Source of the DNA: Parasporobacterium sp.
GTDB lineage: Bacteria; Bacillota; Clostridia; Lachnospirales; Lachnospiraceae
Assembly: GCA_017459985.1 (NCBI GenBank)
Contig: JAFUBX010000029.1
Coordinates: forward strand, 1 to 34,718
Length of the DNA: 34,718 nucleotides
Direction: 5' to 3'
Below are positions 6,308 through 34,718 of this stretch, piece by piece. Both the position numbers and the translations under genes were made by a program. A model generated the notes under the pieces. The model was not told the origin of the DNA. It did no database searches and worked only from the letters and a program-made list of their open reading frames with translations. Each line of letters starts with the position of its first letter. The first letter of the stretch is position 1.

Positions 6308-6520
6308 TTTGAGGGCTCCCGGGCTGAAAACCAAAAAAACTCTTCTTTTCCCGGGTGTATATGCCCCAAATGCTCTTGTGCAGAATAGCTCGGATCTGAG
6401 TCTGCAAATAATAAATCAAGTAAAAATAAGGCACTTTGTAAATTTTTACGGGTCTTCTGCACCTTGGGTGGGTGCCTTCCTGTTGTCGAATGTGCCGTAA
6501 AATCCATGCCGCTGTTAACT
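6308..6520. other. Intergenic stretch with minor hairpins
   Basis: No gene is supported here. An inverted repeat GTAAAAAT/ATTTTTAC flanks an AAGGCAC that could also pair with GTGCCTT near 6474. CCCGGG occurs twice near 6318 and 6352. None of these has a clean T-run, so I do not call a terminator for the Nudix gene. Confidence 0.3.
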
Positions 6521-6868
6521 TCATCCATATTTGCTTCCATCATGCCATTTGGACTATCCTGGAAATAATCATCATTTACTATCCCTGTCATTTTTACGAA
6601 AACAGGGATAAGGTTTCCAATAATTTCATATATAGTCCAGGTCAGTCTCTCTCAGGACCTTCATTTCGGACCATATTTTGAAAAATCGTCACTTTCTATC
6701 CCTGTTTTCAATTTCGAAACAGGGATAAGGTTTCCCGATAATTTTATATATGGCCCAGTTAGGGGCTTCTCCAACCTCGCAAATTGGACTATATATAAGA
6801 AAACTGCCAATTACTATCCCTGTTTTCCGGATCAGCGCAGGGATAGTATTTGGCAATTATTTCGCTGA
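6521..6868 (+). repeat. 348-bp multi-hairpin element, copy 1
   Basis: The element aligns end to end with 34371-34718 (same length, same orientation, one compensating 1-base shift). It contains three hairpins built on one motif, CTATCCCTGT paired with ACAGGGATA: centres near 6595, 6710 and 6829. The third is longest, with TGCCAATTACTATCCCTG (6805-6822) facing CAGGGATAGTATTTGGCA. Hairpin 1 is closed by GGACTAT (6551-6557) and ATAGTCC (6632-6638). Related GGAC-ATAT arms surround hairpin 2. No ORF is conserved between the copies. It looks like a structured RNA or a non-autonomous mobile element. Confidence 0.85.
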
Positions 6869-6918
6869 TCACCCAAAGACCTTCGGACTACGCAAATTCC
6901 TGTACGTATATTTCTGAA

Positions 6919-6972
6919 AAAAAGCATCCGCATGCTCTTAAATCCGGAATTCGCTGTGGCAGATGCTTCTGC
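6919..6972 (-). repeat. Dispersed hairpin repeat, copy D, ending in a T-run
   Basis: On the minus strand the stem AAGCATC (complement of 6962-6968) and GATGCTT (complement of 6922-6928) encloses CACAGCGAATTCCGGATTTA, the same loop motif as in copies A (2854-2986) and B (7227-7339). The right arm runs into seven Ts, so this copy would work as a minus-strand terminator. No minus-strand gene precedes it. Confidence 0.5.
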
Positions 6973-7226
6973 CTGTAGTGTATCCATAATCGTTTATTTT
7001 TATCGATTATTGAATACAGAAACCTGCTCCTGTCTCCACAATCAAACATGATACATTTAAAGACAGCTGTCTCCGCAATTTACCGTTTCCGGAAAATAAC
7101 GGATACAAAGCCGCCGGCATCTGGATCAAGCGATTCACTCAAGGTGCACTTCCACCGTTCGCTGAGAGCCCGAGATAGTTGCGTGGCCGAGGGGTATTTT
7201 CTCACGAAAGGGCCAAAAATCAGGAA

Positions 7227-7339
7227 TTATTTTAGAAAACTCCGGCAAATGTATCTTCCACAGCGAGTTTCGGATTTGCGATACTTTTTAAATGTTCTCA
7301 GAATGGCACTTTCACTGTACAAGATGCAGGAGGGAGTCT
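7227..7339 (+). repeat. Dispersed hairpin repeat, copy B
   Basis: Related to copy A over its full length, but without the 20-base insertion between CTGTAC motifs. The stem here is GTATC (7251-7255) with GATAC (7280-7284), where copy A has GCATC with GATGC, so both sides of one base pair have changed together. The loop keeps ACAGCGAGTTTCGGATTT. The ORF that spans this repeat (7048-7413) has no ribosome binding site or family resemblance and is not called. The gap 6869-7514 otherwise holds copy D and an ATAATCG/CGATTAT hairpin near 7000. Confidence 0.7.
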
Positions 7340-7514
7340 TGCCAATAGATCGACCATCAATTTCACCTATTTTCATGCCGTTTGCGCTGGCCTTCCTGAA
7401 TAATATAAAATAATACCTTTGCACAAAACAGATACAATCGGGTATTCTGCTTGAAATTCCTCAGTGTTTGAGATACGTTGTAAAAAACGAGGCATCATGG
7501 AAGGAGGAGCAGAC

Positions 7515-8323: not shown

Positions 8324-9709
8324 ATGGCAATCGTTGGTACATTTGCAGTGCCCCACCCGCCGATGATCATTCCGCAGGTGGGCAGAGGAAGCGAAACGCA
8401 GGTAGAAGCAACGATCCGGGCATATCACAGGATCGCCGGAGAGATCGCCGCATTAAAACCGGAGACTATCATTATCTCCAGTCCCCATGCGGTGATGTAT
8501 TCCGATTATTTTCATATTTCGCCGGGAACGCATGCGGCTGGATCCTTTGCCCGGTTCGGCGCTGCGGAGGTCTCGTTCCGGGAAACATATGACACGGAAC
8601 TGAGGGAGACGATCTGCAGCCTGGCCGAGGAGCGGAACCAGCCGGCGGGAACCCTGGGCGAGAGGGACAAAACCCTTGATCACGGGACTATGGTACCGCT
8701 GTATTTCATCAGACAGCATTATCAGGAGTTCCGGATCATCCGGATCGGACTATCCGGACTGCCCCTGACCACCCATTATGAAATGGGGCAGGTGATCCGG
8801 GAGGCGGTGCAGAAAATCGGACGCCGCGCGGTCTATGTGGCCAGCGGAGATCTTTCCCACAAGCTGCAGGATTACGGCCCCTATGGGTTCGCACTGGAAG
8901 GCCCGGAATATGATGAGAGGGTCATGGATGTGTTGGGCCGGGCCGCGTTCGGAGAATTGCTGGAGTTTGAAGAGGGATTCTGCGAGAAGGCGGCGGAATG
9001 CGGCCACCGTTCCTTCGTTATGATGGCGGGCGCCCTGGACGGCGACGCGGTAAGACCTTGCCGGCTGTCTCATGAAGACGTGACCGGGGTAGGATATGGA
9101 ATCTGCGGATTTTTCCCGGAGGGGCAGGACGACAGCCGCCGTTTTCTGGACCGGTATCTCCGGAAAACGCAGGAGGAGCTGAAGAAACGTCGGGACGCGG
9201 AAGATCCTTACGTTAGGCTGGCCAGAACCTCTCTGGAAAGCTATATTCTCAACCGGCAGGAGATTGACATTCCGGACTGGGTCCCGAATGAAATGAGAAG
9301 CCGGACTGCCGGCGCATTTGTGTCCATTCACGAACACGACCGGCTGCGGGGCTGCATCGGCACCATCCTTCCTGTCACCGGCAGTCTGGCCCGGGAAATC
9401 ATCCAAAACGCCATCAGCGCGTCCACCCGGGATCCCCGGTTTGATCCCGTTAAGCCGGCGGAGCTTCCCTGGCTGCAGATCAATGTGGATGTCCTGGGCA
9501 CGCCGGAGCCGATTGACAGTCCGGAACAGCTGGATGTGAAACGGTACGGAGTGATCGTGACAAAAGGGAGAAAACGGGGGCTTCTTCTGCCGGATCTGGA
9601 CGGCGTTGACAGCGTGGAGCAGCAGATCCGGATCGCGAAACAGAAGGCGGGGATCCGCCCGGAGGAGCCGGTTTCGCTGGAGCGCTTTGAGGTGGTCAGA
9701 CATTATTGA
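8324..9709 (+). CDS. amrAB: AmmeMemoRadiSam fusion: Memo-like (protein B) plus AMMECR1 (protein A)
   Basis: Two domains are joined in 461 residues. Residues 1 to about 265 are the Memo/LigB-like domain: VPHPP (H11), SSPHAVMYSDYF (H55), LDHGTMVPLYF (H120) and ASGDLSHKL (H179), which are the positions that bind metal in class III extradiol dioxygenase relatives. Residues about 293-461 are the AMMECR1 domain with the signature LRGCIG at 341-346 and the C-terminal VSLERFEVV. In many bacteria these are separate proteins (AmrB and AmrA). The third component, a radical SAM enzyme, overlaps the stop codon. The biochemical reaction of this trio is not established. The ribosome binding site lies in the end of the preceding pseudogene, which suggests a once-shared transcript. 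Confidence 0.93.
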   Translation: MAIVGTFAVPHPPMIIPQVGRGSETQVEATIRAYHRIAGEIAALKPETIIISSPHAVMYSDYFHISPGTHAAGSFARFGAAEVSFRETYDTELRETICSLAEERNQPAGTLGERDKTLDHGTMVPLYFIRQHYQEFRIIRIGLSGLPLTTHYEMGQVIREAVQKIGRRAVYVASGDLSHKLQDYGPYGFALEGPEYDERVMDVLGRAAFGELLEFEEGFCEKAAECGHRSFVMMAGALDGDAVRPCRLSHEDVTGVGYGICGFFPEGQDDSRRFLDRYLRKTQEELKKRRDAEDPYVRLARTSLESYILNRQEIDIPDWVPNEMRSRTAGAFVSIHEHDRLRGCIGTILPVTGSLAREIIQNAISASTRDPRFDPVKPAELPWLQINVDVLGTPEPIDSPEQLDVKRYGVIVTKGRKRGLLLPDLDGVDSVEQQIRIAKQKAGIRPEEPVSLERFEVVRHY

Positions 9710-33310: not shown

Positions 33311-34339
33311 ATGAAAGTATTTGATGGATATACAAAGGGGGTCAATCTGGGCGGCTGGCTGTCCCAGTGCGATCATACGGAGGAACGGTATCAGACGTTT
33401 ATTAAAGAGGAAGATTTTCAGGTGCTGGCCGGATGGGGGATTGACCATGTCCGGGTGCCGGTGGATTATGATCTGGTGGAGGAGAAGGACGGAACCTGTC
33501 GGGAATCCGGATTTGCCCATATTCAGGATGCCATCGACTGGGCCGGAAAATACCGCCTTAATCTGATCCTGGATCTTCACAAGACCTTTGGATATTCCTT
33601 CGATGAGGGGGAAGCGGAAAGCGGGTTCTTCGAAAAACCGGAATACCAGGAACGTTTCTACAGACTTTGGGAGCAGTTCGCCCGGCGGTTCGGAATATAT
33701 GGGAATCGGGTGGCATTTGAACTGCTGAATGAGGTGACGGATAAAGCATACTGTGAAGAATGGAACCGTATTGCCGGCATCTGCATCGGACGGATCCGCA
33801 AGATCGCGCCGGAGGTGGATATCCTCGTCGGCGGTTATCATAACAACAGCGTGGAGGCGGTCAGGGATCTGCTTTTGCCGCCGGATGAGCATATCGTCTA
33901 CAATTTCCACTGTTATGAGCCGATTGCATTTACCCACCAGGGGGCGTACTGGATTCCGGCAATGAACCCGGACTTCCGGATTTCCCTGGACAGCACCATC
34001 AAAGAGATGGAAGCAGCCGCAGGCCGGATGGTCTTCCCGGGATGGGACGGTTATGGCCGCTTCGATCCGATGGACCCGATGAGCCCCGCCTTTTTTGAGA
34101 CGTTGTTTGAAGAAACCGTACAGACGGCAAAGGAGCGGGACGTCCGTCTCTATTGCGGCGAGTACGGAGTGATTGATCTGGTTCCTCCGCAGCAGACCGT
34201 CCGGTGGTATGAAATGATCCATGCAGCCTTTGAAAAATACGGGATCGGACGGGCCGCCTGGAGCTACCGGCAGATGGATTTCGGTCTGTCGGATGCGCGG
34301 CTGGACCACGTCAGGGATGCTCTGCTGAAATTGCTGTGA
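33311..34339 (+). CDS. Glycoside hydrolase family 5 (cellulase/exo-glucosidase-like)
   Basis: This 342-residue protein without a signal peptide is a GH5-type (beta/alpha)8 barrel. It has KGVNLGGWLSQ near the start, HVRVPVDYD, LILDLHKTFGYSF, the acid/base pair N140-E141 (FELLNEV), HCYEPIAFTHQ and the nucleophile E284 (YCGEYGVID). These correspond to the conserved GH5 catalytic residues. The ATG at 33311 has GGGAGC upstream and begins right at the domain; an upstream GTG in frame is not supported. As the enzyme is cytoplasmic, it should cut imported oligosaccharides or glycosides, such as beta-glucosides, rather than polymers. A glycoside substrate would suit a flavonoid-using neighbourhood, but this is only inference. 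Confidence 0.92.
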   Translation: MKVFDGYTKGVNLGGWLSQCDHTEERYQTFIKEEDFQVLAGWGIDHVRVPVDYDLVEEKDGTCRESGFAHIQDAIDWAGKYRLNLILDLHKTFGYSFDEGEAESGFFEKPEYQERFYRLWEQFARRFGIYGNRVAFELLNEVTDKAYCEEWNRIAGICIGRIRKIAPEVDILVGGYHNNSVEAVRDLLLPPDEHIVYNFHCYEPIAFTHQGAYWIPAMNPDFRISLDSTIKEMEAAAGRMVFPGWDGYGRFDPMDPMSPAFFETLFEETVQTAKERDVRLYCGEYGVIDLVPPQQTVRWYEMIHAAFEKYGIGRAAWSYRQMDFGLSDARLDHVRDALLKLL

Positions 34340-34370: not shown

Positions 34371-34718
34371 TCATCTATATTTGCTTCCATTTGACATCCG
34401 GGCCATCCAGGAAATAATTGCCATTCACTATCCCTGTCATTTTTGCGAAAACAGGGATAAGATTCCCCAATAATTTCATATATGGTCCAGTTCAGGCTCT
34501 CTCAGAACCTTCATTTTGGACCATATTTTGAAAAATCGCTGTTTTCTATCCCTGTTTTCAACTTCGAGACAGGGATAGGATTTTCCAATAATTTCATATA
34601 CGGTCCAGTCCGGGCCCTCTTCTACCCCACAATTCGGACTGTATATAAAAAAACTGCCAATTACTATCCCTGTTTTCCGGGTCAGTGCAGGGATAGTAAT
34701 TGGCAATTATTGCGCTGA
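34371..34718 (+). repeat. 348-bp multi-hairpin element, copy 2
   Basis: Collinear with 6521-6868 over the whole length and ending at the window edge, so it may continue. The three CTATCCCTG hairpins are kept. The third is perfect here: TGCCAATTACTATCCCTG (34655-34672) faces CAGGGATAGTAATTGGCA (34688-34705). The arms closing hairpin 1 are GGGCCAT and ATGGTCC, versus GGACTAT and ATAGTCC in copy 1. It begins 31 bases after the GH5 stop codon. Confidence 0.85.

Follow-up and report, generated by a model that had tools for sequence, protein, structure and literature searches.

A BIME/REPIN-like family of interspersed palindromic DNA repeats, seen only in one Parasporobacterium species, as probable landing sites of a putative RNA-guided IS110-family element

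Introduction

Two similar stretches, each with three related hairpins, lie on one contig of Parasporobacterium sp. and raise the question of whether such an element persists for the structure of an RNA or for the sequence of its DNA. The original prediction, made from these two copies, held that they might be a structured RNA family, an attenuator-like array or a MITE-like element, and pointed to a compensatory base change in one stem. The window, meaning the whole stretch of DNA analyzed (34,718 nucleotides), is the entire contig C109 of a single 3.53-Mb genome assembly of 131 contigs, which is 94.75% complete with 4.98% contamination and in which many contig ends fall in hairpin repeats. The analysis described here indicates that the repeats look like mobile or protein-binding DNA, not conserved RNA.

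Results

The two copies in the window and their boundaries

Copy 1 (6521-6868) and copy 2 (34371-34718) lie on the same strand and are 85% identical over 351 bp with no net indel, in agreement with their description as paired elements of like orientation. The predicted length of 348 bp, however, is not a biological length, because copy 2 is cut short by the end of the contig, and the repeat continues on both sides of copy 1. Two other contigs, C113 and C123, carry the last 141 bases of copy 2 at an end, and C127 opens with the last 95, a pattern typical of assemblies that break within repeats. Copy 1 occupies the middle of a ~430-bp composite (6450 to about 6880), itself part of a larger repeat mosaic, in which a head module is followed by units A, B and C and then by further modules, each of the latter with its own distribution. 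The features, all on the forward strand, are as follows.

6450..6517, +, head module (GGGTCTTCTGCACCTTGGGTGGGTGCC...), a 5' end common to many copies and absent from copy 2
6545..6643, +, unit A, palindrome of two inverted half-sites; model hit with core hairpin 6579-6610
6662..6761, +, unit B; model hit with core hairpin 6696-6727
6780..6879, +, unit C; model hit with core hairpin 6814-6845
6820..6821, +, CT dinucleotide, the IS110-family insertion point in other copies as placed from junctions; free here
6881..7052, +, tail module, most of which occurs at nine other places
7050..7152, +, second downstream repeat module with its own distribution of copies
7168..7340, +, third, separate mosaic repeat module with its own distribution of copies
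34394..34493, +, copy 2 unit A; model hit with core 34428-34459
34512..34611, +, copy 2 unit B; model hit with core 34546-34577
34630..34718, +, copy 2 unit C, cut by the contig end; core 34664-34695, with a free IS target CT at 34670-34671

The three core hairpins predicted for each copy are thus confirmed, and both copies are unoccupied by insertion sequences (IS). The start of unit C in copy 2 is placed near 34630 because the model hit, 34642-34718, corresponds to model positions 13-89. The right end of unit C is GATCACCCAAAGACC, where units A and B have GGTCCA instead. In six other copies (L011, L013, L027, L032, L033 and L035) the match begins only at about 6518-6520, without the head module. 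A query with the tail region matches nine other places from query position 1 to 163-272 at 75-93% identity, and five more over only its first 27-96 bases. A GH5 cellulase gene, with its stop codon at 34339, ends just ahead of the copy 2 array. Elsewhere in the window, an additional copy of the third mosaic module lies at 2843-2986, and 8324-9709 encodes one protein with a LigB-like dioxygenase domain and an AMMECR1 domain.

Unit architecture and copy number

The search of the host genome proposed with the original prediction yielded at least 82 hairpin units at 38 places. The covariance model used was built from 34 units and 150 candidates were scored, so that weak copies may be missed; units truncated at contig ends and a single weak hit (C59, 40.6 bits) are part of the count, and some contig-end pieces are possibly one copy counted twice. 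The places comprise 16 triplets, 12 doublets and 10 singles, so that 28 of the 38 are clustered. Five more truncated pieces were recognized by eye: three C units that the IS interrupts (C100, C114, C82), half of a unit next to the IS on C67, and part of a unit on C35.

Each 100-bp unit consists of two inverted half-sites of ~41 bp (TGGACCAT, an AT-rich middle, and CTATCCCTG) around a loop of ~13 nt, and an array consists of up to three units inside the larger mosaic. Unit spacing is 117 or 118 bp in 42 of 44 cases, once two copies truncated at contig ends (C109, C123) are allowed for, and 107 bp, about one helical turn shorter, in the other two (C24, C49). Hairpin loops are specific to position within the array, and A, B and C units are mixed in several hybrid arrays, as expected if units recombine. 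Truncated and single-unit copies are common and some copies are interrupted by IS. By eye, the older triplets L024 and L025 are without head and tail, and diverged relatives are present in the same genome as a triplet on C91, which retains the unit spacing of the family, a doublet on C49 and an array on C67. Heuristic open reading frames overlap the array in 12 of 39 loci, one of them 302 aa long (L038), so that "intergenic" is only an approximate description; array orientation relative to neighboring genes is mixed, as judged from crude ORF calls.

Two loci on C67 are arranged differently when inspected by eye: L039 has three direct-repeated left half-sites followed by three right ones in place of alternating pairs, and L067 is an array with direct-repeated left half-sites. 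Other repeats were also seen by eye near the arrays. A second hairpin family, GGAAGGT..GGTATGGAGTTTACAGGCTTTTTC..ACCTTCC, often lies downstream of them (L014, L028, L037, L040 and others), and a third family around GCAATGCTGCA / CTGCCGAAAAATTGCAGCATTGCG occurs at L032, L033 and L035 and in the 5' flanks of L005, L006, L016 and L021. Repeats of this third family stand directly 5' of the head module in some copies, and the upstream flank is often T-rich.

Folding, covariation and the claimed compensatory change

Predicted RNA folding is much stronger than that of shuffled sequences (z of -7.60 and -8.96 for copies 1 and 2). The hairpin-1 stems, GGACTAT/ATAGTCC in copy 1 and GGGCCAT/ATGGTCC in copy 2, have the sequences originally given, but the difference between them represents two unlinked polymorphisms and not a compensatory change. 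Among 29 typed A units, a tally that includes the near-duplicates L014/L015 and L020/L022, the closing pair is C-A in 17, C-G in 8, T-A in 3 and T-G in 1 (Fisher p = 1.0); the second difference, A to G, yields G-T with the opposite base unchanged. A change that is persuasive in two copies thus dissolves when 29 are compared. In the diverged C91 array, which lies outside the 29, the closing pairs of all three units are matched (T-A, T-A, C-G). Perfect complementarity between neighboring arms of copy 2, on which the proposed switch between two folds was based, is present (ATATGGTCCA at 34480, TGGACCATAT at 34517) and measures 10 bp, not the 9 bp reported; this alternative pairing arises because the half-sites have the GGACC/GGTCC motif in common.

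Both arms lie in one register (i+j=102), and by a fixed criterion the 100-base register is kept in 68 of 75 units. The stems were examined for covariation by unit type in this common register using distinct rows only (25 A, 15 B, 23 C). No signal was found: the proportions of paired cells are 65.4%, 69.9% and 69.9% for A, B and C, compared with 65.4, 70.0 and 69.8% in shuffles, and pairing equals or exceeds the observed value in 259, 365 and 237 of 500 shuffles, respectively. Pairs with two-sided changes are not above shuffles (190, 114 and 472 of 500 at least as high), the variable pairs are broken as often as kept, and adding the C91 units leaves the outcome unchanged. Mismatches of A-C outnumber those of G-T in each unit type (101 to 19 in A, 39 to 36 in B, 126 to 75 in C), whereas selection at the RNA level on this strand would leave the reverse.

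In a pooled alignment, A1, composed of 34 of 83 extracted units chosen as 100-base stretches, so that its gapless fit is partly by choice, 68.3% of cells pair compared with 69.7% in shuffles; the observed value is reached by all 500 shuffles on four measures and by 499 on a fifth, and two-sided changes occur in 10 pairs against 15.9 in shuffles. This pairing deficit was rejected as a signal, being an artefact of mixing unit types, as the test by type lies at shuffle level. The consensus structure from RNAalifold comprises the core and parts of the arms when computed by type, and the core alone for mixed types. On RNAalifold's own pairs, with 77 units used, G-U outnumbers A-C by 41 to 1, 20 to 10 and 35 to 6, in a structure fitted to the same sequences and with columns that are nearly always or mostly U-G included in the counts. 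The core itself is a nearly invariant 9-bp stem that hardly varies and is therefore uninformative on covariation in either direction. Searches of the repeat copies against Rfam gave no family at its cut-off, and terminator-like sites around copy 1 show no excess.

Sequence constraint on the core

Comparison of 46 nearest-neighbor pairs drawn from 68 units gives 266 differences, of which 18 core columns hold 17 against 47.9 expected and the outer arms 46 against 42.6 expected. The core columns were picked after their conservation had been seen, so that the p of 6e-8 is too good and the result is indicative. It suggests that the core is constrained or has recently spread and that the outer arms behave as if neutral; recent spread, constraint in a mobile lineage or gene conversion could each also explain the depletion in the core.

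An IS110-family element in the hairpin cores

Half a hairpin abuts the same foreign sequence at five places (C46, C67, C100, C82 and C114). All five junctions fall at the same CT dinucleotide of the core, with the left end of the element at C46 and C67 and the right end at C100, C82 and C114; the three right junctions and the left one at C46 are in C units, and the left one at C67 is in an L039-type unit. The five junctions represent three to five insertions. The element on C67 belongs to the IS110 family: its 478-aa transposase scores 216.1 bits against a cut-off of 140 for NF033542 (NCBIfam "IS110 family RNA-guided transposase") and contains the domains DEDD_Tnp_IS110 (E 1.1e-31) and Transposase_20 (E 2.6e-17), and a noncoding region of 555 nt lies downstream of its gene. 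A second, different IS110-family element, of 391 aa, is present at L068 (C61:1-2500).

Of 200 family genomes, 21, the own one among them, encode a related transposase (E up to 1e-60). Among 12 IS loci (own and 11 relatives) a noncoding scaffold was recognized in eight; L090, L091, L097 and L098 have none in the stretch examined. The putative guide, defined as the eight bases before a fixed point of the scaffold, matches the IS's own flank at 7-8 of 8 positions in all eight scaffold-bearing elements, the flank of the relatives being taken as the target without an empty site. For the element in this genome the guide is TAAAACAG and the target in the hairpin core is GAAAACAG. With the constant AG left out, the true assignment of guides to flanks matches at 42 of 48 positions, the single best of 40,320 permutations, a count that overstates independence because five of the eight IS are related and have similar GGAG-ending flanks. 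The guide fits its own flank strictly best in five of eight cases and is tied with another IS's flank in three. The relation first became apparent in the own IS together with two relatives, and five further elements were then used to check it.

A putative second guide (T-side, top-strand) matches at 19 of 22 positions jointly, but 3 of 300 shuffles and as many of 300 decoys score at least as high, and L088, judged by eye, does not conform. For the 101-nt stretch containing the guide, predicted folding is no stronger than in shuffles (z +0.57), and the IS has no match in Rfam. We infer that the guide segment is expressed as a guide RNA. On sequence evidence, the new feature is a presumably RNA-guided IS110-family element whose putative guide matches the hairpin core and whose ends lie at one dinucleotide of that core at all five junctions. 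The guide segment is readable in silico, as guide and flank agree in eight related IS, and target prediction for this subgroup is therefore directly testable.

A search within the Y1 and IS110-type families identified no mobilizer of the repeats, and neither a target-site duplication (by eye) nor an empty site was seen for them. No cognate RAYT gene was found in this genome, at whose completeness of 94.75% a missed gene is possible: the only two Y1 proteins, at 27.1 and 34.9 bits, lie below the RAYT cut-off of 80. They were rejected as a RAYT or repeat mobilizer, since both exceed the IS200/IS605 cut-off and score as ordinary IS200/IS605 transposases. A TnpB gene (NCBIfam) lies beside L056 and a TnpB-like ORF of 403 aa, recognized by eye and motif, beside L055.

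Distribution in other genomes

By blastn only the own genome among 61 matched, and none of the 60 relatives. The covariance model matched 2 of 14 genomes in the genus (E up to 0.05) and 2 of 299 in a family sample (E up to 0.001), own included in both cases; the family sample contains 298 other genomes, one of them a congener, and was searched with stricter filters and 13 candidates scored per genome. The weak hits in G004 and G324 proved unrelated on inspection of their sequence, leaving no genuine match in the 13 congeners or the 298 other genomes. A long inverted duplication at the end of a G004 contig (L086, G004:C131) is probably an assembly fold-back. The repeat had no match in phage and plasmid collections or, with one pattern scanned, in viral contigs. 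Four stretches from a pattern scan of named genomes were discarded, being about the number expected by chance (hand estimate) and having GGACC arms in place in none. A full-text literature search, which does not prove absence, returned no description of this hairpin repeat. Among the genomes searched, the family is seen only in this species.

Discussion

The original suggestion of a repeated, MITE-like element is upheld in the sense that copies are many and dispersed, that arrays are truncated and hybrid, and that some are interrupted by IS. We consider it likely that these are species-restricted, BIME/REPIN-like interspersed palindromic DNA repeats that serve as landing sites for an RNA-guided IS110-family IS. 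Two inverted half-sites of ~41 bp would make up the 100-bp unit and up to three units an array within a mosaic, and the family would have spread and diversified in this lineage through a copying mechanism together with recombination between units. Copies, hybrids and truncations are observed directly; from them we infer that the repeats are mobile and spread as non-autonomous DNA. Since the sequence is constant, above all in the core CTATCCC/GGGATA, without covariation in the variable pairs, the selected property is likely to be recognition as DNA, and one recognizer is probably the IS110-family element, whose putative guide matches the core and which uses the hairpins as landing sites.

A structured RNA family, or an attenuator-like array, that can adopt either of two folds would account for the strong predicted folding of both copies, the nearly invariant 9-bp core stem, the pairing between neighboring units in copy 2, the matched closing pairs of the C91 array and the excess of G-U over A-C on RNAalifold's own pairs. 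Covariation, however, is absent both in the pooled alignment and by type, A-C mismatches exceed G-T in every type in the common register, and 17 of 29 copies have a broken closing pair in hairpin 1; nor is there an Rfam match over the cut-off, a terminator-like excess around copy 1 or, by crude ORF calls, a consistent orientation relative to neighboring genes. An RNA function is consequently very improbable. The conservation of a sequence motif without pair covariation would also be expected of binding sites selected by the host for a nucleoid, topology or segregation protein, with up to six half-sites regularly spaced. The scarcity of recent differences in the core (in columns picked after inspection), the near-uniform spacing with two exceptions of about one helical turn less, and the same spacing in the diverged C91 array fit such sites, although most spacings are inherited from one ancestor, no candidate protein can be named, truncated and single-unit copies are common, and the arrays are absent from congeners. 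Host-selected binding sites are thus unlikely.

Occurrence at many sites and restriction to a species would fit a classical MITE, that is, a non-autonomous element moved by a resident or former DDE transposase acting on the imperfect ends of the ABC triplet, ATTGGACCAT / ATCACCCAAT. By eye, the older triplets L024 and L025, lacking head and tail, end near these sequences. The ends nevertheless agree at 7 of 10 positions only and no target-site duplication was recognized (both by eye), newer copies have other boundaries (about 6450, 6518 and 6880), and no partner gene with such ends was found within the Y1 and IS110-type families, so that we regard a classical MITE as possible, though on the doubtful side. 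We also put forward, tentatively and as a rather unlikely proposal, that the arrays are the substrate of a RAYT-independent system that recognizes the 41-bp half-site and copies or organizes up to six of them, giving both LR-LR-LR and LLL-RRR arrangements, the guide of the IS having secondarily adapted to a pre-existing repeat.

Comparison with known systems

Interpreted as interspersed palindromic DNA, the repeats resemble the BIMEs and REPs known from Proteobacteria and from other phyla (PMC2817692, PMC3733652): dispersed palindromes in alternating orientation, in regular mosaic arrays and often species-specific. Many dispersed, clustered and inverted copies are found here as well, with position relative to genes judged from crude ORF calls. 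They differ in that the half-sites alone are ~41 bp, whereas a whole REP is 20-40 bp, that neither a GTAG nor a CGTC tag is seen by eye next to the arm in the 34-unit consensus (GGAC lies inside the arm), and that no RAYT gene was found. The inverted doublets, predicted hairpins and dispersal within one genome are shared with REPINs (part of PMC3116915), but the units here form triplets with position-specific loops, again with no RAYT found. The family thus adds a REP-like repeat without a detected RAYT; the literature drawn on also includes part of PMC2267715.

REPs are known IS targets according to a portion of PMC1525189, and the insertions described here differ from those of IS110/IS1111 elements into REPs in that the target repeat is new and belongs to another lineage, and in that the second guide is weakly supported. 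The transposase, at 478 aa, compares with about 340 aa for IS1111s and 315-450 aa for IS110s in passages of PMC11187229, where a noncoding region downstream of the transposase gene, such as that of the C67 element, is also described as usual for IS1111-type elements. The likeness to ISPa11 and others, as portrayed in parts of PMC1525189, PMC11187229 and PMC11208160, lies in a DEDD transposase, here putatively RNA-guided as well, that inserts at one position in a folded repeat.
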